NCBI RefSeq assembly: GCF_003003235.1
Contig: NZ_PVUE01000003.1
Location: forward strand, 245,150-281,107
Reading direction: 5' to 3'
DNA length: 35,958 nucleotides
From: Antricoccus suffuscus
GTDB lineage: Bacteria > Actinomycetota > Actinomycetes > Mycobacteriales > Antricoccaceae
The notes below the pieces were generated by a model. It was not told the DNA's origin. It was given only the letters and a program-made list of their open reading frames with translations, and ran no database searches. The position numbers and the translations under genes were made by a program. Positions 2-13,188 of this stretch are shown here, piece by piece (within the stretch, counting starts at the first letter, position 1; each line of letters opens with the position of its first letter).

Positions 2-391
2 TTCCTGCGCGAGTACCGAGGCGACTGTCACAACGCGGCGTGGGTTGCCGCCGGGCTGTCGGCCACTGATATCGGCCTACTCACCGAGCTCTATTGGGGC
101 ATGACGCTGCGCAGCTACAGTCGCTCGCGCGGCTGGACCGAAGCGGAGTTCGACGCATCCGAATCGAGATTGCGCGACAGGGGGCTGCTCGACGGTCCCG
201 GGCTGTCGGATGCCGGCCGGGAGCTCCGGGAGCAGCTGGAGGTCGCGACCGACGTGCAGATGCTTCCAGCGTTAAACGCGCTCGGCGAGGACGCGACCGA
301 GCTGTGTGAGTTGCTCGAACCCTGGGGCAAGACAATCCGAGCAGGACACGGTTATCTCGCGTCCGGACCGCACGACCTTGGTGGACGCTGA
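2..391 (+). CDS. SCO6745 family protein (SalK-like), 5'-truncated
   Basis: This is the C-terminal 129 residues of a gene that begins outside the window. The open frame runs from base 2 and reads FLREYRGDCHNAAWVAAGLS, then an LLTELYWGM segment and a YSRSRGW motif; this helical C-terminal region is typical of actinobacterial SCO6745/SalK-like proteins, whose biochemical role is not well established. The ATG at 101 lies inside the domain and is not the real start. The stop overlaps the 5' part of the phosphopantetheinyl transferase frame. Family assignment is from recognised motifs; function is not inferred. Confidence 0.72.
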   Translation, partial: FLREYRGDCHNAAWVAAGLSATDIGLLTELYWGMTLRSYSRSRGWTEAEFDASESRLRDRGLLDGPGLSDAGRELREQLEVATDVQMLPALNALGEDATELCELLEPWGKTIRAGHGYLASGPHDLGGR

Positions 392-1019
392 GCGCCTACC
401 CGGCAGCGGGAGGGTGATTAGTTACGCAATGGGGCTGCGCGGTCACACCAATGCGCTGATCGCTGCCGCACTGGCAATCCCTCAATCGAGTATCTGCATT
501 GGCAAACGGTGCGCGACGTGCGGTTCGACCGACCACGGCAAGCCGTACCTGGTCAATGCGCCGGGACAGGCGATCTCGATCGCGCACGCCGGGGACTGGA
601 CAGTCGTAGCGTCGTACGCCGGGCCGAGCCTCGGAATCGACCTGGAGTCGACCGACCACCCGATGCTCGAGCCAAGCGATCTGCTCACCGTCAGCGAGGC
701 GCGCCGGGTTGGCGAACTGCCTGCGGTTGACCGGTCCGACGCGTTGCGGCGACTTTGGGTGCGCAAGGAGGCGGTCGTCAAGGCGACCGGCACGGGACTC
801 GCAGTACCGCTGGCCTCGATCGCCCTCGAGCAGTACGACGAACGGCACTACCTCGCTTCGGGCCGGCTGCTCGAGCGGCCCATGAGAGTGATCGACGTGC
901 CGATGGGCACCGAATTCGACTGTGCCGTGGCGATCCCCGCGGATCAGGGCTTCGAACGGGTCGAGGGGCGGATTGCTAGTCCGCCGCCCCCGGGAAGGTC
1001 GTACGACGGAAGTGGGTGA
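306..1019 (+). CDS. 4'-phosphopantetheinyl transferase (Sfp type)
   Basis: Transfers the phosphopantetheine arm of CoA to a conserved serine of carrier proteins, turning apo- into holo-synthetases. Seen: a CATCG-x-TDHGKP segment (about residues 69-80), GIDLES with its Mg-binding acidic residues (110-115), and WVRKEAVVKATG (141-152), the WxxKEAxxKAxG signature. The start is uncertain: GTG at 306 gives 237 residues but overlaps the upstream gene by 86 nt; GTG at 381 and ATG at 429 are alternatives. Alignment of the LVDAER region with the N-terminal helix of Sfp-type enzymes favours one of the two upstream starts. The 3' end overlaps the convergent M1 peptidase gene by 76 nt. Its natural partner in the window is the carrier domain of the NRPS at 2317-6240. 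Confidence 0.86.
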   Translation: MSCSNPGARQSEQDTVISRPDRTTLVDAERLPGSGRVISYAMGLRGHTNALIAAALAIPQSSICIGKRCATCGSTDHGKPYLVNAPGQAISIAHAGDWTVVASYAGPSLGIDLESTDHPMLEPSDLLTVSEARRVGELPAVDRSDALRRLWVRKEAVVKATGTGLAVPLASIALEQYDERHYLASGRLLERPMRVIDVPMGTEFDCAVAIPADQGFERVEGRIASPPPPGRSYDGSG

Positions 1020-2320
1020 GTGTCCAGCCACCTGCGCAGCAGTACGACGGCCGCGTTGCCGAGCCGGTCGCCGACAAGGACGATGAAATCCAACGTGGTC
1101 GCCGTCGAGTGGCGATAGCGCGACACCCACTCCCGCAGGACGTCGAAGAACGCGGGATCGCCTGCGGTGCGCCGCAACGCGTGCAAGGCCAGCGCTCCGC
1201 GTTTGTAGAGGCGATCGTCGAACATGAGCTCCGGACCGGGGTCGGAGATCGCGAAGTCCTGCGGTAGCGCGGACAGCTTGTCGTAGTAGCGGCGAGCCCA
1301 GTAGTCGGCGGTGCGGTCGCCGGAATGCTCGGCCCACAGCCATTCGCTGTAGCAGGCGAATCCTTCGTTGAGCCAGATGTCCTGCCAACGCGTGAGGCCG
1401 ACGGAGTTGCCAAACCACTGGTGCGCAAGCTCGTGCGCGATGAGCCGATCCGAGCCGGACTGCCCATCCACATGGTTGGCGCCGAACGTCGAAAAACCCT
1501 GGGACTCAAGGGGAATCTCCAGCGCATCTTCGGTCACTACCACTTTGTACTCGGAGAATGGATACGCGCCGTACAACCCGGCGAACAGCTCGACCATCTC
1601 GTGTTGCCGCGCGAAGTCATGCTCAAACTTGGCCTGCAGCTGACGAGGGACCAGTGCCGTTTGCTTCACGGGGTCCTCGGCCAGGCCGACGAAGGGCTCC
1701 TGACCGATGTAGAGCGTGGCGAGGTAGGTCGCCATAGGTTCGTGCTGTTCGTAGATCCAGGTCGTCTGCGACGATCCGACGCGCTTAGACGTGAGCGTGC
1801 CGTTGGCGAGCACGGAGTACGGCGAATCAGTGGTGATCGCAAACCGGTACGGTGCTTTGCTGCTTGGGTGGTCGTTGCACGGGAACCAGGTCGAGGCGCC
1901 GGTCGGCTGGCTAGCGACCAGCGCGCCGTTGTCGAGCTCCTCCCAGCCGAGTTCCCCCCACGGGCTGGAGGCTGGCCGAGGATTGCCGCCATAGCTGACT
2001 TCTACCGAGATCGGTACGCCGGGGACGGTCGGACCGGCCGGCCAGATGTGCAGTTTGCCCGCTCGCGCGACGTACTTTTTGACTCGCCCGCCGTCGATGG
2101 TCACGCGCGATACCTTCAGCCCCGTGAGGTCGAAGGACAACCTGCTCAAAGCGCGGTGCGGGCGGACCGAGACAAGCGCCTTGGCGCTCAGTCGGTTGGG
2201 CGCGACTCGGTAGTTGAGTTCGAGGTAGTAGGAAAGTACGTCGTATCCGCCGTTTCCGTGTTTCGGCGTGTAGGGATCGCCGTACGTATCCGGACCGATC
2301 TCCGGCTCGCTCACACTCAC
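944..2320 (-). CDS. M1 family zinc metallo-aminopeptidase (compact form)
   Basis: A zinc aminopeptidase of 458 residues. HELAH (296-300) and the downstream glutamate E319 in LNEGFA supply the zinc ligands and catalytic base; PLESQG near 270-275 stands where the GAMEN exopeptidase motif normally lies, keeping the glutamate E272 that would bind the substrate N-terminus. It is about half the length of PepN, lacking the long C-terminal helical domain, and no signal peptide is visible, so it is probably cytoplasmic. Its ATG overlaps the NRPS stop codon (ATGA), so the two genes are probably translated together. In Streptomyces albulus a zinc aminopeptidase that degrades epsilon-poly-lysine is known; a similar role here is inference from context. 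Confidence 0.9.
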   Translation of the reverse strand: MSVSEPEIGPDTYGDPYTPKHGNGGYDVLSYYLELNYRVAPNRLSAKALVSVRPHRALSRLSFDLTGLKVSRVTIDGGRVKKYVARAGKLHIWPAGPTVPGVPISVEVSYGGNPRPASSPWGELGWEELDNGALVASQPTGASTWFPCNDHPSSKAPYRFAITTDSPYSVLANGTLTSKRVGSSQTTWIYEQHEPMATYLATLYIGQEPFVGLAEDPVKQTALVPRQLQAKFEHDFARQHEMVELFAGLYGAYPFSEYKVVVTEDALEIPLESQGFSTFGANHVDGQSGSDRLIAHELAHQWFGNSVGLTRWQDIWLNEGFACYSEWLWAEHSGDRTADYWARRYYDKLSALPQDFAISDPGPELMFDDRLYKRGALALHALRRTAGDPAFFDVLREWVSRYRHSTATTLDFIVLVGDRLGNAAVVLLRRWLDTHPLPSYDLPGGGGLAIRPSTRSKP

Positions 2321-5300
2321 GCATTTTCCTTCTGTGCCTCTGCAGTCGCCTGGTCGCCAACTGCGACATCGACCGACAGGTGGGGCATCTTTGGTGCATT
2401 TGTCGACCAGGGGCTGATGGGGTTACCCTGCCACAACGATCGGGCCGGTACCGACTCGCCTCGCATGACCAGGGACGCGGGGCCGACGGTCGCGTCGTCG
2501 TCGATCTGTGCTGCGGGCAAGATGACGCTGTGCGGGCCGAGGGTCGCGCCGCGGCCGAGTACGACGCTGTCGAGGCTCATTACCCGGTCATGGAACAGAT
2601 GCGTCTGTACGACGCAGCCTCGGTTGACGGTGGCGCCGTCTTCGAGCCGGACCAGATCGGCTTCGGGCAGCCAGTAGCTTTCGCACCACACCCCGCGACC
2701 GATGTGTGCGCCGATGGTGCGCAGCCACAGGTTAAGGACCGGAGTGCCGGTAGCCGGCGCGGCGAACCACGGTGCGGCGACAAACTCCACGAAGGTGTCG
2801 ACGACTTCGTTGCGCCAGACGAACGAGCTCCAGAGCGGGTGTTCCGATTTCGGTATGCGTCCGACGATCAGCCACTTCGCCGCCGTGGTGATGCCGGCGG
2901 CCACGGCGCCGACGACGGCCAGTACGACCCCGGAGAGCACGAATGCTTGCCATAGCCCGAGTTCGAGATGCAGCAGTTGGAGCGTGAGCAGCAGGCTCAC
3001 GCCGATCGCGCCCGAGACGATTACCGGTATCGCGCGGCACACCTCGACGAGCGAGCGCATCACCTTGAGCCGCTTGGAAGGCTTATGCGTCAGCGAAGAA
3101 TCGACGTCCTGTGCATTTCGGCGCAGCTTGACCGGCGGGCTACCGAGCCATGATGTGCCCGACTTCGACTTGTGCGGCGCCGCCGAAAGTACGGCGACCA
3201 GACCGTCTTTGGGCACCCGGCGCCCGCTGTGGGCCATGCCAGAGTTTCCGAGGAACGCACGTTTGCCGACCTTCGCCCTAGCTATCCGCATCCAACCGCC
3301 ACCGAGCTCGTACGAGGCGACCATAGTGTCGTCGGCGAGGAACGCGCCGTCGCGCACCTCGGTCATTTTCGGCACGAGTAGCACGGTGGAGGCCTCGACG
3401 TTCTTACCGATCTTGGCGCCCAACGCGCGCAGCCACACGGGTGTGAAGAGGCTGGCATAGATCGGAAACAACAGCGTGCGGGCGGTGTCCAGCAGCCGCT
3501 CGGTAGCCCAGACCTGCCAGCCGATCCGGCTGCGCACCGGATGCGCGCCCTCACGTAGGCCGAGTCCGAGTAGCCTCACGAATCCCAGGATCAGGACCGC
3601 GAGCGTGACAAACGCGGCGATAGAGCCCAGGGGCACACCGATCATTGCTCGGCCATAGCCCTGCGCCCAGGTGTTTGCATCGCCGACGAACAGCTTGACG
3701 ATCCACAGTCCGACGATCGCGGCGAGCACCGGCAGGAGCGCCATGACGAGCGATGAGGCGCCATAAGCCCACACCCACGCCGTGGCCCTCGGGGGTCGTT
3801 CCTCCGGCCACGGGTGCTTGACGCGGCCCATCCGCCGCGCCGGGGAGCCGCTCCAGAATTCGCCGGTAGGTACGTCGCCGAACACCGCCGATCCTGGCGC
3901 GACGTCGGAGTCTCTGCCGACCGATGACCCGGGCCCCATCGTGCTTCGGGAGCCTATCGTCGCGCGCGCACCGATCTTGATCGCACCGATGTGCACGAGG
4001 TCCCCGTCAATCCAGTAGCCGGAAAGATCCACCTCCGGTTCGACCGAACAGCCGCCGCCGAGCTCGAGCATGCCCGTGATGGGAGGCAGCGAGTGCAGGT
4101 CCACCCCTTTGCCGATCTTGCAGCCCAACGCCCGCGCGTAGTACGGAATCCAGGGTGCACCGGCCAGGTTGGCCGCGCCTACCGCGTCGGTGAGCCGCTC
4201 GGCCGCCCAGAGCTTGATGTGTGTCTTGCCGCCGCGGTCGTACGCCCCGGGGCGCACGCCATACAGCAACAGGCGGGTGCCGAGGACGGCGACCGTCATC
4301 CGGCCGAACGGCGTGAGCAGGATGAGTGCGCCGCCGCCGACGAGCCACCAGGACACCGGTGCCGGCCCGTAGTCACCAACGCCGCCGACGATGTTGGTCA
4401 GCAACAGGAGGATCACGACCCATCTGGCGCCGGCGATCGTGTTGATGATGACGCTGAGGCCGAGCTGCAGAAGCTGGGTGCGCCGCCGGGTCGGCTGGAC
4501 GGTGCCACGTTGGCTGGCGGGCTGGATGGTGCGGAACTTCGACTCGAGAAACTCGGTCATCGAGCCGACGGAAGGCTGTGCGTAGAGATCGGCGACCGTC
4601 ACCTCGGGGTAGCGCTGGCGGAGCTTGGACACCAGTTGAGCGGCGGTAAGGCTGCCGCCGCCGTTGGCGAAGAAGTCGTCAGTCCGGCTAGTCGGCGTGA
4701 CGCCGAGGACCTCGCCGAACCGGTCTGCGACCCAGGTCTCGGTCTCGGTGAGATCGTCGGGTTCGTCGTGCGCCGGTGCCGAGGCTATCGGCCAGGGGAG
4801 TGCGTCGCGGTCAACCTTGCCCGAGGTGCGGGTCGGGAGGGTGTCGACGGCGGCGAGCATCGGCACGAGTGCTGCGGGGAGTGCCTCGGTAAGGCGGGCC
4901 CGCGCGGCGGACTGGTCGAACGGTACGTCGTCGGCCGGTACGACGTAGCCGACGAGGACCTGGTTGCCGCCCGCCGTCGTCTTCACCGCTGCGGCGCCCC
5001 CGGCGATACCTGGAAGCGATTGCAGTGCCGCGTCTACTTCGCCGAGCTCGATGCGGCGACCGCCGAGCTTGATCTGTTCGTCCGCGCGGCCGACGAACAG
5101 CAGACCGGCCGCATCGTTTTGGACGAGGTCGCCACTTCGGTACGCGCGGTCCCAGCCGAGGGTCGGCATGGCGACGTACTTCTCGGCGTCCTTGATCGGG
5201 TCCAGGTAGTGCGCAAGCCCGACGCCGCCGATAACCAGCTCGCCTATCTCGCCTTCACCGACCGGCTCGGAGGTGTCTTTGTTGACGACGGCCAGATCCC

Positions 5301-6240
5301 AGCCGTCTAACGGAAGCCCGATTCGCACCGGGCCATCGCCGGTCAACTGTGCGGCGCACGCAACGACTGTCGCCTCTGTAGGGCCGTAGGTGTTCCAGAC
5401 TTCGCGGCTGTCCGTGACGAGCCGCTCGGCCAACTCCGGCGGACACGCCTCTCCGCCAAAGATCAGCAGCCGGACGTCGTCGAGGCTGTCGGCCGGCCAC
5501 AGCGCCGCCAAGGTCGGCACCGTCGACACGATCGAGATGTGTCGAGCGACGAGCCATGGCCCAAGGTCCATTCCGGTGCGCACCAATGCGCGCGGGGCCG
5601 GTACGAGGCAGGCGCCATACCGCCAAGCGAGCCACATCTCCTCGCAGGAGGCGTCGAACGCGACCGACAACCCGGCCAAGACCCGGTCACCGGGACCGAT
5701 CGGCTCGTCTTGCAGGAACAGCCGTGCCTCGGCATCTACAAATGCCGCGCCGGAACGGTGTGAGACGGCGACGCCCTTGGGTAGGCCGGTAGACCCTGAG
5801 GTGAAGATGATCCAGCAGTCGTTGTCCGGGGTTGGAGGTGACGGCGGCGCATCGGTGGCCGCGGCAAGTCGTCGTACCTGTTCGACGCTGTCGAGGATCG
5901 TCGTGACCGCCGCCTGGCCGAAGACGAGCTCGGCACGTTCCGGTGGGTCGTCTGCGTCCACTGGCACGTACGCCGCACCAGCGATCAGGATGCCCAGAAT
6001 CGCCAGATATAACTCGGAAGTGCCGGATGGGATCTGGATGCCGACACGGTCTCCCTGGCGCACACCGTCGGCCGCGAGCCCGGCGGCGATACGCTCCGCC
6101 GTTGCGGTCAGCTCGGCGTAGCTGAGGATCGACGTACCGTCATCCAGTGCCGGCTTGCCGGGGTACGCCGCGGCGGTTGCCCGGAGTACGTCGACAAGGG
6201 TCCGTTCGTCGGGCCGTCGGTCGCCGCGCAACATCGTCAT
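2317..6240 (-). CDS. Pls/PosA-type membrane NRPS (adenylation-carrier-three tandem TM/LbH modules)
   Basis: A 1307-residue single-module synthetase. The adenylation domain (about 15-485) shows IIFTSGSTGLPKG (144-156), FDAS (195-198), NTYGPTEAT (283-291), YRSGDL, GRADEQIKLGGRR and TSGKVDR with K475. The carrier domain has GGGS with the phosphopantetheine serine at S530. Three pairs of predicted membrane helices follow (about 593-618/630-660, 824-852/866-894, 1066-1092/1097-1127), each pair followed by a soluble left-handed beta-helix-like domain (about 690-805, 925-1037, 1165-1275). This is the layout of epsilon-poly-L-lysine synthetase, in which these domains replace normal condensation and thioesterase domains. 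Aligning to the PheA pocket gives D196 A197 E200 S239 I260 G262 T284 V292 V293 K475, which resembles lysine codes. The product is inferred, not shown. ATG at 6234 is an alternative start. Confidence 0.92.
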   Translation of the reverse strand: MTMLRGDRRPDERTLVDVLRATAAAYPGKPALDDGTSILSYAELTATAERIAAGLAADGVRQGDRVGIQIPSGTSELYLAILGILIAGAAYVPVDADDPPERAELVFGQAAVTTILDSVEQVRRLAAATDAPPSPPTPDNDCWIIFTSGSTGLPKGVAVSHRSGAAFVDAEARLFLQDEPIGPGDRVLAGLSVAFDASCEEMWLAWRYGACLVPAPRALVRTGMDLGPWLVARHISIVSTVPTLAALWPADSLDDVRLLIFGGEACPPELAERLVTDSREVWNTYGPTEATVVACAAQLTGDGPVRIGLPLDGWDLAVVNKDTSEPVGEGEIGELVIGGVGLAHYLDPIKDAEKYVAMPTLGWDRAYRSGDLVQNDAAGLLFVGRADEQIKLGGRRIELGEVDAALQSLPGIAGGAAAVKTTAGGNQVLVGYVVPADDVPFDQSAARARLTEALPAALVPMLAAVDTLPTRTSGKVDRDALPWPIASAPAHDEPDDLTETETWVADRFGEVLGVTPTSRTDDFFANGGGSLTAAQLVSKLRQRYPEVTVADLYAQPSVGSMTEFLESKFRTIQPASQRGTVQPTRRRTQLLQLGLSVIINTIAGARWVVILLLLTNIVGGVGDYGPAPVSWWLVGGGALILLTPFGRMTVAVLGTRLLLYGVRPGAYDRGGKTHIKLWAAERLTDAVGAANLAGAPWIPYYARALGCKIGKGVDLHSLPPITGMLELGGGCSVEPEVDLSGYWIDGDLVHIGAIKIGARATIGSRSTMGPGSSVGRDSDVAPGSAVFGDVPTGEFWSGSPARRMGRVKHPWPEERPPRATAWVWAYGASSLVMALLPVLAAIVGLWIVKLFVGDANTWAQGYGRAMIGVPLGSIAAFVTLAVLILGFVRLLGLGLREGAHPVRSRIGWQVWATERLLDTARTLLFPIYASLFTPVWLRALGAKIGKNVEASTVLLVPKMTEVRDGAFLADDTMVASYELGGGWMRIARAKVGKRAFLGNSGMAHSGRRVPKDGLVAVLSAAPHKSKSGTSWLGSPPVKLRRNAQDVDSSLTHKPSKRLKVMRSLVEVCRAIPVIVSGAIGVSLLLTLQLLHLELGLWQAFVLSGVVLAVVGAVAAGITTAAKWLIVGRIPKSEHPLWSSFVWRNEVVDTFVEFVAAPWFAAPATGTPVLNLWLRTIGAHIGRGVWCESYWLPEADLVRLEDGATVNRGCVVQTHLFHDRVMSLDSVVLGRGATLGPHSVILPAAQIDDDATVGPASLVMRGESVPARSLWQGNPISPWSTNAPKMPHLSVDVAVGDQATAEAQKENA

Positions 6241-6376: not shown

Positions 6377-7183
6377 CTAGCCTCGGGTACGCCGTACCGG
6401 AATGATGATCGGGCCGTGCTGCGGCGACCCTTCGGGGGGCAGCAGTACGTCGAGGTGCGCGCCGTACGTCGCACGCAGCGTGTCGGGTCGTAGTACGTCG
6501 AGTGGCGCGCCAACCGTGACGACTTTGCCTCTGTGCATGAGCATCAGCCGGTCGGCGTACTCCGCTGCGAGGGTCAGGTCGTGCATCGTGCTGATGACGG
6601 TGAGCGCCGAGCCGCGGCGGAGCTCGTCGATCACCTCGAGGACCTCCTGTTGGTGGCCGATGTCGAGCGCGGAGGTGGGCTCGTCGAGGAGTAGGACCGT
6701 GGGCTCCTGGGCCAGCGCGCGGGCGATGAACACCCGCTGCAGTTCGCCGCCGGACATCGAACCGAGCATCCGGCCTGCGAATTCAGCGAGGTGGAGCCGG
6801 TCGAGCACGTCGGAGACGACCTGACGGTCTGTGGGGCCCTCGCGGTGCAGTGGGCCGAGATGTGGCGTACGGCCGAGGAGCACGTAGTCGGTCACGGTCG
6901 TGCCGGTTGGCACGGCGGGATTCTGAGCGACGACGGCGATCTGGCGGGCGATCTCGCGGCGCGGCATGCGGGTGATGTCCTTGCCTTGCAGGCTGACCTG
7001 ACCGGTGCAACGGAGCAGGCCGGCGACCGCGCGCAGCAGCGTCGATTTCCCGGCGCCGTTCGGTCCGATGATGCACAGCCACTCGCCCGGCAACGCGTGC
7101 AGGTCGACGTCGTCGATCAGCGTCGCGTGGTCGAGGACGACCGAGACGCCATGTGCCGCTAGCGCGGGAAGGGTGGCGGTCAT
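6377..7183 (-). CDS. ABC transporter ATP-binding protein (probable corrinoid uptake, BtuD/FecE type)
   Basis: Cytoplasmic ATPase of a type II importer, 268 residues. Seen: Walker A GPNGAGKST (about 40-48), a Q-loop region in VVAQNPAVP, signature MSGGELQRV, Walker B TVLLLDEPTSALD, and the switch histidine in STMHDLTLA. It overlaps the permease gene by 4 nt (ATGA), so translation is probably coupled. Family motifs alone do not separate iron-siderophore, haem and cobalamin ATPases; the cobalamin riboswitch at the head of the operon favours corrinoid transport. Confidence 0.9.
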   Translation of the reverse strand: MTATLPALAAHGVSVVLDHATLIDDVDLHALPGEWLCIIGPNGAGKSTLLRAVAGLLRCTGQVSLQGKDITRMPRREIARQIAVVAQNPAVPTGTTVTDYVLLGRTPHLGPLHREGPTDRQVVSDVLDRLHLAEFAGRMLGSMSGGELQRVFIARALAQEPTVLLLDEPTSALDIGHQQEVLEVIDELRRGSALTVISTMHDLTLAAEYADRLMLMHRGKVVTVGAPLDVLRPDTLRATYGAHLDVLLPPEGSPQHGPIIIPVRRTRG

Positions 7184-8253
7184 CGGCGCGAGGTCCGTAA
7201 CAGTATGAGGAAGAACGGCGCCCCCAAGAAGGCCGTGACGACGCCGATCGGGATCTCCGCGGGTGCCAGCAGCATCCGCGCCGCGATGTCCGCGATCACC
7301 AGCAGCGCGCCGCCGACCAGCGCCGACAGCGGGATGATCGAGCGGTAGCTGTGCCCGCAGATGAGCCGCACGAGGTGCGGCACGATGATGCCGACGAAGC
7401 CGATCAGCCCACTCACCGAGACGGCGGCGGCGGTGCCGAGAGAGGCCGCGACGATCAGCAGGATCCGGGCCCTCGCGGGGTGCATGCCAAGCGCACTGGC
7501 CTCTTCGTCGCCGAGCGCCATCACGTCGAGGACTCGGCGGTAGGCAAGCAGGATCCCGACGCTGACCACGGCGTACGGCAGGATCATCAGCACCTCAGAC
7601 CAGCCCGTCGTGCTCAACTTGCCGAGAATCCAGGAGTAGACCTGCTTCAGCGAGTCGGAGTTCTGCTGTACGACGAAGGTCTGGATGGCGGTCAGAAACG
7701 ACGTCACAGCGACGCCGGCGAGGATCAGGGTGGCGGTGCCGGACCGCATCCCCGTCGCACCGAGGAGGTAGGTCAGTGCCACGGCGACCAGGGACCCGAC
7801 GAAGGCGGCGATCGGGGTCAACGCGCCGCCCCAGCCGCCGGCGATCGCAAACGTGGCGCCTAGACCGGCTCCGGAGGCGGACCCCAGCAGATAGGGATCG
7901 GCCAGTGGGTTACGAAAGACGCCCTGGTACGCCGCACCGCAGATCGCCAGCAACATGCCGACCAGTACGCCGAGGATCACCCGTGGGAAACGGATCTGGG
8001 TGACGATCGCGGACTGCACTTCGGTCAGTCCGCTGTGGATATGTATGCCGGGAATGTGCCCGAGTAGCTCGGTGAACACGCCCCACGGGGGCAGCGCTAC
8101 GGCACCCATGGCGACGCCGAACACAACGGCGACGATCAGGATCACGAAGCAGATCGCGGTGTGCGAGAGCCGCAGCCGGGCCGGCCGGATCGTCGGCATC
8201 GCCGGGGCTGAGTGCCCCGTGATCGACTGCCGCGCCGTGTCCGGCCGTGCCAT
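7180..8253 (-). CDS. FecCD/BtuC-family ABC transporter permease
   Basis: Polytopic membrane permease of 357 residues, with many hydrophobic segments starting at about residue 30. Family landmarks include RFPRVILGVLVG after the first helices, the GAAYQGVFRNPLADPYLLG segment, the G-D-E-E-A region (ALGDEEASALG) that forms part of the coupling to the ATPase, and GLIGFVGIIVPHLVR. It starts 6 nt after the binding-protein stop and overlaps the ATPase by 4 nt, so it is the middle gene of a three-gene operon read leftward from the cobalamin riboswitch. Two copies would form the membrane channel. Confidence 0.92.
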   Translation of the reverse strand: MARPDTARQSITGHSAPAMPTIRPARLRLSHTAICFVILIVAVVFGVAMGAVALPPWGVFTELLGHIPGIHIHSGLTEVQSAIVTQIRFPRVILGVLVGMLLAICGAAYQGVFRNPLADPYLLGSASGAGLGATFAIAGGWGGALTPIAAFVGSLVAVALTYLLGATGMRSGTATLILAGVAVTSFLTAIQTFVVQQNSDSLKQVYSWILGKLSTTGWSEVLMILPYAVVSVGILLAYRRVLDVMALGDEEASALGMHPARARILLIVAASLGTAAAVSVSGLIGFVGIIVPHLVRLICGHSYRSIIPLSALVGGALLVIADIAARMLLAPAEIPIGVVTAFLGAPFFLILLRTSRR

Positions 8254-8259
8254 GGAGTG

Positions 8260-9225
8260 CTAGCCCGCGTGCTTTTTGACCGCGTCGCCTATTTCCTTGG
8301 CGAGGTCGGCGATCCGGGGGCCCCACCGCGAGGCGATGTCGTCGTTGATGGACACGATGCCGTCGTCCTTGACCGCGCGGGTGACGTCCCAGCCGGGTCG
8401 CGCCTTGACGGTCGCCGCATCCTGCCCGCAGCATTTCGTGTCGGCCAGGAAGATGAGGTCGGGGTCGGCGTCGATGACGTACTCGGCGGACAGCTGCGGA
8501 TAGCCGCCGGCGGTGTCGGGCGCCTTGTCGGCGATGTTCTCGAGGTTGAACTTCGAAAGGATCGAGCCGATAAACGTCTTGGACGTGACCGAGTAGCCGG
8601 TGCTGTCGAGCTCCCAGAAATACGTGAGCGGTTTCGATTTCGTTGGCGCGCTGGCGGCCGCGTCGTCGACGGACTTCTTGACCTTGGAAGCGAGCGCGGC
8701 GCCCTCGGTGTCATGGCCGGTGAGCTGGCCGATCTGCTTGAACTGGTCGTACGCCTCGTCCAGCGACTTCGGTGCGGACAGAACGACGGCGGTGATCTTC
8801 AGCTTCGCCAGTGCCTCGACGATGTTGTCCTGGTCATCGGTGAGCAGCACGAGGTCTGGCGCGAACGTCGCGATTGACTCGGCCTTCGGCGCGAAGGCGT
8901 CGAGGTCGGAGACCGGGGCGTCCTTTGGGTAGTTCGAGAGCTTGTCGACGGCCTTGACTTGGTCGCCCGCGCCGACGGCGTACACCGACTCGGTCAGCGA
9001 CGGCGACAGTACGACGATGGACTCGGGCAGCGCCTTGAGATGGATCTTCTTGCCCTCGACGGTGACATCCCGGGGAAACTTCGACGAGTCGCCGGATCCC
9101 TTGCCGGCGGTGCCGCCGCTGGAGTCCGATCCGCAACCGGCGAGGAGCGCAACTACGACGAGTAGGGCGGCGCCGAGAGCGGCAATCGCCGCTCGTCCTG
9201 GTCGTCTGTTGCGGGTGGTGGTCAT
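8260..9225 (-). CDS. ABC transporter substrate-binding lipoprotein (probable cobalamin-binding, BtuF-like)
   Basis: Extracytoplasmic binding lipoprotein, about 321 residues. A basic N-terminus and hydrophobic stretch lead to lipobox LLAGC with the lipidated cysteine at about C31. The mature part has the IVVLSPSLTESVYAVGAGDQV start of the periplasmic-binding fold used by BtuF/FhuD-type proteins, with a long central helix. ATG at 9225 is chosen because AGGAAGG lies 6 nt upstream and the signal peptide begins there; a frame extension to 9417 covers the riboswitch and is not coding. First gene of the operon. Ligand is inferred from the riboswitch. Confidence 0.9.
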   Translation of the reverse strand: MTTTRNRRPGRAAIAALGAALLVVVALLAGCGSDSSGGTAGKGSGDSSKFPRDVTVEGKKIHLKALPESIVVLSPSLTESVYAVGAGDQVKAVDKLSNYPKDAPVSDLDAFAPKAESIATFAPDLVLLTDDQDNIVEALAKLKITAVVLSAPKSLDEAYDQFKQIGQLTGHDTEGAALASKVKKSVDDAAASAPTKSKPLTYFWELDSTGYSVTSKTFIGSILSKFNLENIADKAPDTAGGYPQLSAEYVIDADPDLIFLADTKCCGQDAATVKARPGWDVTRAVKDDGIVSINDDIASRWGPRIADLAKEIGDAVKKHAG

Positions 9226-9351
9226 GTCGTGCCTTCCTGTCGGCTGAGGTGGTGCACTCGCTGACAGGAACCGCGCCGTGAGACCGGATGATCTTGGTGG
9301 CATAAGGACCGTCAAGCGATGAGCTCCGTGTCCTCGAGAGCGCTCGTCGCC
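9226..9351 (-). promoter_or_regulatory. Expression platform with ribosome-site-masking hairpin
   Basis: Leader between the cobalamin aptamer and the binding-protein ATG. On the minus strand TTCCTGTC (9263-9270) is exactly complementary to GACAGGAA (9234-9241), which contains most of the Shine-Dalgarno AGGAAGG of the gene at 9225. The eight-pair stem encloses a 21-nt loop. This suggests control of translation initiation rather than of termination; no U-run follows. Which state the ligand favours cannot be read from the sequence. Confidence 0.55.
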
Positions 9352-9465
9352 GTTGAATCCCAGGCGTCCTGGCTTTCCGACGCGAGTCGAGCCATTTCTC
9401 GTCAGGCGGTCGGTCACAGTTGCGGGTCAGCGCCGGACTTGCACCGGCTTCGCTGAGGAGTCAAC
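9352..9465 (-). promoter_or_regulatory. Cobalamin (B12) riboswitch aptamer
   Basis: Read on the minus strand. The core has GAAGCCGGTGCAAGTCCGG (about 9434-9452), then CCCGCAACTGTGA, and later GGAAAGCCAGGACGCCTG, which matches the B12 box (about 9362-9379). The outer stem can be closed by GTTGA (9461-9465) pairing with TCAAC (9352-9356), reinforced by TCC/GGA. These are the conserved elements of the cobalamin aptamer family; the peripheral arm is short. It precedes the binding-protein/permease/ATPase operon and is the main reason to assign that operon to corrinoid uptake. Confidence 0.88.
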
Positions 9466-11664: not shown

Positions 11665-13188
11665 GTGCCAAAGGACGAGAAGAACCCCCAGGACTCAGCG
11701 CCCAACCCGGTCGAGGTTGACGACACACCCGAGCAGCTCAAGATTCGCCGCGGAAAACGCGAACGGCTTCTCGCCGAAGGTGTCGAGCCTTATGTAGTTG
11801 GTGTCTCGCGCACGCATTCTCTTGCGCAAGTGCGGGCGGCGTACCCCGATCTGGAAGCAGACCATGCGACTGGTGACCGGGTCGGTATCACCGGTCGGGT
11901 CATTTTCTTTCGCAATTCCGGAAAGCTCTGCTTCGCGACCTTGCGTGAGGGCGGCGTCGAACTTCAAGTGATGATTTCGCTGGCGAAGGTCGGCGAGGAG
12001 GCGCTCGCGCGCTGGAAGTCCGACATCGATCTAGGCGACCATGTATTCGCCGATGGCGAAGTGATCACTTCGAAGCGTGGCGAACTGTCGGTACTAGCCG
12101 ATCGCTTCGAGCTCACCGCTAAAGCGCTGCGTCCGCTTCCAGTCGCGCACAAACCAATGAATGAGGAAACTCGGGTCCGCCAGCGGTACGCCGACCTCAT
12201 CGTGCGTCCGGAAGCGCGACAGATGGTTGAAGTGCGCGGAAAAGCAATAGCCTCGATCCGGGAAACGCTTACGTCGCACGACTACATCGAGGTCGAGACC
12301 CCGATGCTTCAGTCTGTCCAAGGTGGCGCCACGGCTCGGCCATTTACGACGTTTTACAACGCCTACGGTCTTGAGGTGTTCCTGCGGATCGCCCCCGAGC
12401 TCTATCTCAAGCGTTGTGTGGTCGGCGGAATTGATCGGGTATTCGAAATCAATCGGAACTTCCGTAATGAAGGCGCGGACTCGACTCATTCACCGGAATT
12501 CGTCATGTGCGAGTTTTATCAGGCTTACGCCGACTACAACGTCATGGCGGACTTGAGCCGGGAGATCTACCAACGCGCCGCACAGGCGGCCTTGGGCAGC
12601 ATGGTCTTTGACCGCGCCGACGGTACGACGATGGACCTGTCCGGTGAGTGGCGCAGCGCTTCCCTGTATGAGATTACGTCGGAGGCGGCCGGCGTAGAAC
12701 TCACTCCGCAGACACCGCTGGAGACGCTGCACGAAGTCGCGACTCAGAATGGGGTCAAGTTCAGTCCGGATTGGGTAGCCGGAAAGGTGCTCGAGGAAAT
12801 TTTCGAGACGCTCTGCCGAGATCAGCTTCGTGGCCCGATCTTCATTCGGGACTTCCCGCTAGATACCAGTCCACTTGTGCGCTCGCATCGCAGCATCGAA
12901 GGCGTCGTCGAAAAGTGGGATCTCTACATCGACGGAATGGAGTGCGGGACCGGCTACTCCGAATTGGTTGACCCGGTTATTCAGCGCGAGCGGTTTATCG
13001 AACAATCCGCGGCCCGCGATGCCGGCGATAACGAGGCTATGCAAATCGATGAGGACTTCTTGCGTGCTCTGGAATACGGCATGCCGCCATCGGGTGGTGT
13101 GGGCCTCGGTATCGACCGGATGTTGCAAGTGCTGACCGGCCGCGGTATCCGCGAAACGATTCTCTTTCCGTTCGTCAGGCCGGAGTAA
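11665..13188 (+). CDS. lysS: Lysyl-tRNA synthetase (class II)
   Basis: Charges tRNA-Lys with lysine in the cytoplasm; 507 residues, the usual length. An N-terminal OB-fold anticodon-binding domain (about 55-170, including VGITGRVIFFRNSGKLCF) is followed by the class II catalytic core: motif 1 around YIEVETPMLQ, motif 2 FRNEGADSTHSPEF, and motif 3 GVGLGIDRML. The GTG start at 11665 follows a TAGGGT element and has no strong Shine-Dalgarno. The neighbours lsr2 and clpC match the conserved mycobacterial order lysS-lsr2-clpC. Confidence 0.97.
   Translation: MPKDEKNPQDSAPNPVEVDDTPEQLKIRRGKRERLLAEGVEPYVVGVSRTHSLAQVRAAYPDLEADHATGDRVGITGRVIFFRNSGKLCFATLREGGVELQVMISLAKVGEEALARWKSDIDLGDHVFADGEVITSKRGELSVLADRFELTAKALRPLPVAHKPMNEETRVRQRYADLIVRPEARQMVEVRGKAIASIRETLTSHDYIEVETPMLQSVQGGATARPFTTFYNAYGLEVFLRIAPELYLKRCVVGGIDRVFEINRNFRNEGADSTHSPEFVMCEFYQAYADYNVMADLSREIYQRAAQAALGSMVFDRADGTTMDLSGEWRSASLYEITSEAAGVELTPQTPLETLHEVATQNGVKFSPDWVAGKVLEEIFETLCRDQLRGPIFIRDFPLDTSPLVRSHRSIEGVVEKWDLYIDGMECGTGYSELVDPVIQRERFIEQSAARDAGDNEAMQIDEDFLRALEYGMPPSGGVGLGIDRMLQVLTGRGIRETILFPFVRPE

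Follow-up and report, generated by a model that had tools for sequence, protein, structure and literature searches.

A predicted epsilon-poly-L-lysine synthesis and trimming unit in Antricoccus suffuscus with a leaderless M1 aminopeptidase

Which polymer would be made by the three-gene locus at positions 306-6240 of a 35,958-nucleotide stretch of the Antricoccus suffuscus genome, and do the peptidase and the phosphopantetheinyl transferase found there belong to the same system as the synthetase? The stretch (contig NZ_PVUE01000003.1, forward-strand positions 245,150 to 281,107; hereafter the window) belongs to a 4.68-Mb, 43-contig assembly that is 97.8% complete. A first-pass annotation, made from the letters of the window, had described here a Pls-type non-ribosomal peptide synthetase (NRPS), a coupled M1 zinc aminopeptidase, and a 4'-phosphopantetheinyl transferase (PPTase). 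All three genes are present at the noted places and were located by family matches, with E-values from 5e-226 (TIGR02353) down to 3e-10 (the PPTase); because of these values, and because the pls-M1 pair recurs in 97 of the 98 lysine-type loci described below, the gene set is beyond chance. Judging from its synthetase, its substrate pocket, and its gene order, the locus is very probably an epsilon-poly-L-lysine (epsilon-PL) synthesis and trimming unit of the same kind as pls-pldII of Streptomyces albulus, with epsilon-PL as the predicted product. Epsilon-PL is an industrial antimicrobial and a natural food preservative, and according to a 2022 review little is known of how Pls and Pld work and of how chain length is controlled (PMC9205021).

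The synthetase matched TIGR02353 (NRPS_term_dom, "Pls/PosA family non-ribosomal peptide synthetase") over residues 592-1275 with 752.3 bits against a curated cut-off of 423.1 and with nearly the full profile (3-695 of 695), which bears out the family that had been noted; this was the one match above the cut-off in the assembly. The model covers the whole family and is named for Pls and PosA. A Pfam scan of the synthetase at E 0.001 returned AMP-binding, PP-binding, and Hexapep families and no others, and thus no canonical condensation or thioesterase domain. Its predicted phosphopantetheine serine, Ser530, was kept in all 106 rows of a synthetase alignment composed of the window, 80 loci, and 25 further loci; the 80 are the best of at least 587, so that the sample leans to close relatives. 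The AlphaFold2 model (53 aligned sequences; mean predicted local distance difference test score, pLDDT, 85.8; predicted template-modelling score, pTM, 0.88) contains three pairs of helices, and behind each pair a left-handed beta-helix (LbH) region. In the C-terminal part, hydropathy gave five segments; for the first pair, the second helix is seen in the model alone. Because the model shows three such units behind the adenylation (A) and thiolation (T) domains, the order adenylation-carrier-(2TM-soluble)x3, where 2TM stands for two transmembrane helices, had been read correctly (Table 1).

Table 1. Features of the pls locus, with coordinates in the window
Feature	Coordinates	Strand	Evidence
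pls: Pls/PosA-family, predicted epsilon-poly-L-lysine synthetase, 1307 aa, A-T-[2TM-LbH]x3	2317..6240	-	TIGR02353, PF00501, PF00550, PF00132, 7wew_A
Adenylation domain, residues 1-490	4771..6240	-	PF00501; 65.4% identity to 7wew A domain over 483 aa
Carrier (thiolation) domain, residues 503-565; Ser530 in NGGGSL as predicted phosphopantetheine site	4546..4734	-	PF00550 39.8 bits
Membrane polymerisation domain, residues 592-1275; LbH regions C1, C2, and C3, one behind each of three helix pairs	2416..4467	-	TIGR02353, AlphaFold2 model
C3 motif Q1212-T-H1214-L-F-H-D1218, proposed catalytic site (inferred)	2587..2607	-	conservation
M1 zinc aminopeptidase, PldII-like, leaderless, 458 aa	944..2320	-	PF01433, PF17900, model, 4-nt overlap with pls
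Sfp-side PPTase	306..1019	+	PF01648; weak HetI/AcpT/AusB and general PPTase-domain matches

The pocket of the A domain predicts lysine as the substrate. Ten pocket positions, which we take to be those of the Stachelhaus scheme, were placed by motif and read DAESIGTVVK in the window (D196, A197, E200, S239, I260, G262, T284, V292, V293, and K475). The best solved relative of the synthetase is 7wew_A, the epsilon-poly-L-lysine synthase of Streptomyces albulus (629 bits), and its ten pocket residues are identical as judged by eye from the alignment. The pattern was compared with the published code of the ornithine synthetase PosA, DMEHNGTVSK (PMC10522769); at position 2, Ala goes with activation of lysine, Met with ornithine, and Phe with diaminopropionate or diaminobutyrate (Dap/Dab; PMC10522769). 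The published beta-lysine code is DGESISVVNK. Among the 106 aligned synthetases, DAESIGTVVK occurs in 98 (window included), DAESVGTVVK in one, and a pocket with Phe at position 2 (DF-type) in seven. The synthetase tree, which holds no characterised Dab, Dap, or ornithine synthetase and carries a long-branch warning from the tool, groups 99 rows including the window in a lysine-type clade (Shimodaira-Hasegawa-like approximate likelihood ratio test support 100) apart from the seven DF-type rows. The window adjoins three genomes of its own family, and L122, a fourth genome of that family, branches off basally in the clade on a long branch. A Streptomyces locus, L150, annotated "epsilon-poly-L-lysine synthase Pls", has the same pocket and an A domain 89.5% identical to that of 7wew; its Pls shares 52.8% identity with that of the window over 1283 aligned residues. 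Of the two products offered by the first-pass annotation, lysine or diaminobutyrate, the Ala at position 2 therefore leaves lysine as the predicted substrate and speaks against diaminobutyrate. Two plasmid-borne Pls-family synthetases carry DLEDIGTVVK (Rhizobium) and DLEDIGSVVK (Azospirillum), the former type being listed among the unique signatures of rhizobia and others (PMC10522769).

Conservation in the membrane domain points to C3 as probably the site of catalysis, with H1214 and D1218. Q1212, H1214, and D1218 are present in all 106 rows, and H1214 is the sole histidine of the C-terminal part kept throughout. The polar residues common to lysine-type and DF-type rows are W678 near C1; R938, D970, N999, and T1051 around C2; and R1143, E1145, T1166, R1174, E1193, Q1212, H1214, D1218, and W1270 in and around C3. 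Every one of them is retained in the Rhizobium and Azospirillum synthetases. Structure alignment paired C3 with maltose and galactoside O-acetyltransferases (Z about 11 over about 140 residues, as single-domain matches), and a C3 profile matched hexapeptide transferases with an E-value of 1.4e-10; for the whole model, Foldseek template-modelling (TM) scores by query were 0.07-0.16 among the 50 matches listed. The same helix/LbH polymerisation domain has been predicted for PosA (PMC10522769). The conserved C3 residues offer specific candidates for the Pls catalytic site.

The stop codon of pls and the GTG start of the M1 gene share GTGA, a 4-nt overlap, and the purine-rich AGAAGGAAAA lies directly upstream of this start. 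The peptidase model (pLDDT 92.6, pTM 0.91) fits 6koz, a two-domain M1 peptidase of Deinococcus radiodurans, with a TM score of 0.89 and 32% identity. The HELAH motif supplies H296, E297, and H300, which are invariant in a 40-row M1 alignment together with E319 and E272, while Y372 is nearly invariant; E272 sits in LESQ, at the place where other M1 enzymes presumably have GAMEN. The family matches, the motif with E319, and the overlap agree with the coupled compact zinc aminopeptidase that had been noted. The linkage extends well beyond the window. The survey covered 105 loci (98 lysine-type and seven DF-type), and a compact same-strand M1 gene lies downstream of pls in 97 of the lysine-type loci and in none of the DF-type loci. 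For the first set of 80, the count is 79, and the contig ends at the gene in the remaining one (L077). When M1 starts were assigned crudely, as the first in-frame start after -40, the 4-nt overlap was found in 40 of the 97.

PldII has been placed on the outer side of the membrane (PMC9205021, PMC9223678), and two enzymes of this kind carry twin-arginine-like leaders: the PldII of L150 begins with VIRCSRRALIRGVALMPLAATAADG, and L155, a 67%-identical enzyme, has CSRRGLLTAAAALPLGAAVL. We took the best 15-aa Kyte-Doolittle mean as a test for a leader, and obtained 1.59 for L150 and 2.09 for L155. No hydrophobic N-terminal segment was found in the M1 enzyme of the window, its best value up to residue 45 being 0.04, and none of 97 M1 relatives showed a leader, with a maximum of 1.08 when up to 70 residues were examined whatever the start. 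Among 30 further M1 loci (L155-L184, the best of a longer list; at least three come from genomes of the first set, and L184 had no pls in its short stretch), L155 alone exceeded 1.22. A twin-arginine pattern gave 31 matches on 98 M1 N-termini, by eye mostly read-through of the pls 3' end in another frame; it was set aside in favour of hydropathy as too loose, no match having a hydrophobic stretch like those of L150 and L155. Because no export leader was found, the M1 enzyme of the window is probably cytosolic and would act on retained or mis-routed polymer. Given this difference in hydropathy, we call it PldII-like, not PldII. Surface self-protection as published cannot simply be transferred to a leaderless enzyme, which qualifies the trimming and self-protection role that had been proposed.

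The PPTase gene converges on the M1 gene, with an overlap of 76 nt at the 3' end of the latter; judged by eye, a start at 414 (GTG) or 429 (ATG) is likelier than at 306. Its product matched PF01648 with 40.5 bits (cut-off 25) and HetI, AcpT, AusB, and the general PPTase domain weakly and below their cut-offs, and no acpS model was listed for it, which fits the Sfp-type enzyme of the first-pass annotation. The two other PF01648 genes of the assembly differ in this: one is a holo-acyl carrier protein (holo-ACP) synthase above cut-off, and the other matched the same holo-ACP synthase models below their cut-offs and the general PPTase domain TIGR00556 above its cut-off. The window enzyme is therefore the sole non-AcpS-like PPTase found in the assembly. 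No PF00668 condensation domain and no ketosynthase in a frame longer than 465 aa were found in the assembly; four of its five carrier domains lie in frames of 99-128 aa, and the fifth is that of Pls. Since Pls is the sole large carrier-bearing synthetase found, the neighbouring PPTase would be its obvious activator. Elsewhere in the same genome, on contig C5, a small cluster (L148, 6597-13805) contains genes for a hexapeptide transferase, an AcpS-like PPTase, a stand-alone carrier, and acyl-CoA-dehydrogenase-like and class-II-aminoacyl-tRNA-synthetase-like proteins. By eye, we take it to resemble an amino acid:[carrier protein] ligase cluster.

For the 97 M1-bearing lysine-type loci, a PPTase gene was adjacent to and convergent with the pair in 18, adjacent on the same strand in one, and 1.8-2.9 kb away in five; it was not seen in the fetched stretch of the remaining 73 (three of which had <1 kb of room), which rules out a universal PPTase-pls link. 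We also compared 61 genomes of our own choice (that of the window, 9, and 51 of a further 53, L022 and L030 being left out), scoring a PPTase as absent near pls when none lay in the fetched stretch. Condensation domains at E <= 1e-30, a threshold for strong matches that was set after the numbers had been seen, were found in 3 of the 24 genomes with a PPTase near pls and in 34 of the 37 without; at E <= 1e-3, the counts were 10 of 24 and 37 of 37. The Fisher values, 2.7e-10 and 8.7e-8, come from related genomes and are not probabilities of independent events. The correlation is confounded by phylogeny, as it sets mainly Micrococcales and the family of the window against Mycobacteriales. One genus contains both states: G002 and G004 have a PPTase near pls and no condensation domain, and in G003 pls has no PPTase beside it, and a PF01648 gene lies at about 3 kb from one of the five condensation matches of that genome. 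In a literature search, no paper tying a PPTase to Pls was found; among the papers listed, the name of this enzyme type occurred in PMC4361855 alone, as a gene-ontology class.

The activities of Pls and PldII have been established by others for relatives, and epsilon-PL is the product that we infer for A. suffuscus. The PPTase would load phosphopantetheine on Ser530 of the carrier domain, and the A domain would adenylate L-lysine and load it as a thioester. The membrane domain, with its three pseudo-symmetric LbH units, would then join the lysyl carboxylate to the epsilon-amine of free lysine or of the growing chain, with H1214 and D1218 of C3 as the probable site, after which the polymer, 25-35 residues long in S. 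albulus, would leave the cell. The translationally coupled M1 aminopeptidase would take lysines off the polymer and, being leaderless and probably cytosolic, would trim or recycle polymer kept inside.

Other readings of each gene have to be weighed. TIGR02353 is a model of the whole family and a pocket code is no proof of substrate, so the synthetase could in principle make delta-poly-ornithine, gamma-poly-diaminobutyrate, beta-poly-diaminopropionate, or epsilon-poly-beta-lysine; this is highly improbable, because the window has the pocket of 7wew and none of the published codes for these monomers, and because the seven DF-type synthetases, which come from the same order, are 30-34% identical to that of the window (the A domain of 7wew shares 37-40% identity with theirs). 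It is scarcely credible that the peptidase is a general aminopeptidase placed beside pls for unrelated reasons. M1 enzymes are indeed common, two others are encoded in the assembly in larger frames (826 and 852 aa), and three DF-type loci have an M1-domain gene a few kb away, but a compact M1 gene that accompanies nearly every lysine-type pls and no DF-type one is hard to explain without a functional tie, and PldII of S. albulus, at the same gene position, degrades epsilon-PL (PMC9223678). Export of the M1 enzyme, with surface self-protection as for PldII, would suit the gene order shared with S. albulus, and hydropathy is a rough measure that would miss export without a classical leader; we nevertheless consider it quite unlikely, given how far the window and its 97 relatives fall below the two enzymes with twin-arginine leaders.

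More room has to be left for the view that the PPTase is a general-purpose enzyme, there by chance and with no special tie to Pls, although this too appears rather unlikely. Its absence from the fetched stretch of most M1-bearing lysine-type loci, the three linkage-bearing genomes that also have strong condensation domains, and the phylogenetic confounding all favour chance. Against it stand the recurrent neighbourhood, in particular the 18 convergent cases, the association of linkage with a lack of strong condensation domains (21 of 24 against 3 of 37), the contrast within the genus of G002, G003, and G004, and another arrangement of the same pair at three of the seven DF-type loci (L141, L145, and L146, all of one family), where the synthetase frame is preceded, at no more than 0.2 kb, by a divergent PPTase frame. 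The synthetases of these three loci have the Phe-type (Dab/Dap-like) pocket, and the loci may represent a parallel set of synthesis, activation, and trimming genes for a different polymer.

Several observations weigh against an epsilon-PL unit of the pls-pldII kind. The M1 enzyme of the window is 41.6% identical to the PldII of L150 and lacks a leader of the L150/L155 type, so that the two may differ in role. The M1 gene lies 0.3-2.1 kb from pls, not overlapping it, in five of the 98 loci (L016, L020, L023, L040, and L047). At L141, L145, and L146, a divergent M1-domain gene occurs 3.3-3.5 kb downstream (26-35 bits to the M1 enzyme of the window; 41-47 bits to PF01433), which rules out that M1 genes are confined to lysine-type loci. 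A universal pls-M1 link is ruled out by the plasmid pls copies of Rhodococcus opacus (L151) and Mycobacterium intracellulare (L152), both with DAESIGTVVK and neither with an M1 gene annotated adjacent. Finally, no epsilon-PL was detectable in Corynebacterium variabile, or in C. glutamicum expressing the C. variabile pls, under the conditions tried (PMC8117764), and the window locus may therefore be silent.

The plasmid copy of R. opacus occupies 4965-8843 of L151. The M. intracellulare subsp. chimaera plasmid pFLAC0070_1 (L152, 1-8855) has its lysine-pocket pls after a giant NRPS and in 4-nt overlap with a PLP-dependent (pyridoxal-phosphate-dependent) cysteine-synthase-family gene, with PE/PPE/WXG100 genes downstream; Pls would be used differently here, perhaps in the making of a larger product.

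Other genes of the window were considered as parts of the system and rejected. Cobalamin/siderophore-type ATP-binding cassette (ABC) genes for a substrate-binding protein, a FecCD permease, and an ATPase (6377-9417, minus strand) lie directly upstream of pls after a gap of 136 nt, but this type of ABC ATPase was matched in 14 of the 105 loci, the three closest relatives (L123-L125) all lacking a match; among relatives, it comes nearest to pls in L129, 0.9 kb upstream, and is farther away in the other loci. A lysyl-tRNA synthetase gene (11665-13188), considered as a lysine-supply gene, is ordinary and was matched in 1 of 105 loci. A promoter and terminator scan gave sites not in excess of those in shuffled sequence.

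The locus adds a candidate epsilon-PL producer, and no NRPS besides Pls was found in its assembly. The first-pass annotation is extended in two points, namely the leaderless peptidase and the retention of a PPTase with pls where other NRPSs are absent. We tentatively suggest, without quite favouring it, that the M1 enzyme coupled to pls may, except in the S. albulus branch, be a cytosolic check or recycling enzyme and not one of surface self-protection, that the Sfp-type PPTase may be a dedicated activator where there is no other NRPS, and that the three genes may form a portable unit. The locus also makes it possible to ask whether the coupled peptidase is intracellular in most actinobacteria and whether co-expression of the native PPTase would help a heterologous Pls.

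The arrangement has already been published and is thus less unusual than was first held. Homologs of pls are listed in Nocardia (PMC4035055), and pls is present in many coryneform genera (PMC8117764). The pls and pldII genes of S. albulus form one operon with a 4-nt overlap (PMC4361855), and repression of pldII lowers epsilon-PL tolerance (PMC9223678); like the window, S. albulus has a single-module A-T-membrane synthetase with the identical pocket and a downstream M1-type peptidase. L150, the Streptomyces stand-in for this locus, has the gene order and overlap of the window, from which it differs in the sequence of both proteins, in the leader borne by its peptidase (as by that of L155), and in the PPTase, which adjoins the pair in the window and is annotated nowhere in the 15.8 kb around L150. 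The two-domain M1 peptidases of D. radiodurans (6koz, 6a8z) resemble the M1 enzyme of the window in their compact fold, and their PDB titles name no tie to a poly-lysine synthetase. PosA, the delta-poly-L-ornithine synthetase of Acinetobacter baumannii, shares with the window Pls the name of the family model and the predicted LbH/helix domain, and differs in Met for Ala at pocket position 2 and in its single-gene operon (PMC10522769). C. variabile, likened here by its published description, has a Pls-peptidase operon of the same kind in an actinobacterium other than Streptomyces, with epsilon-PL as the product in S. coelicolor; a PPTase is not mentioned in the excerpts of that report (PMC8117764). 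Because it has been published for S. albulus and C. variabile, the pls-peptidase system is a known one, of which the window is a further member.

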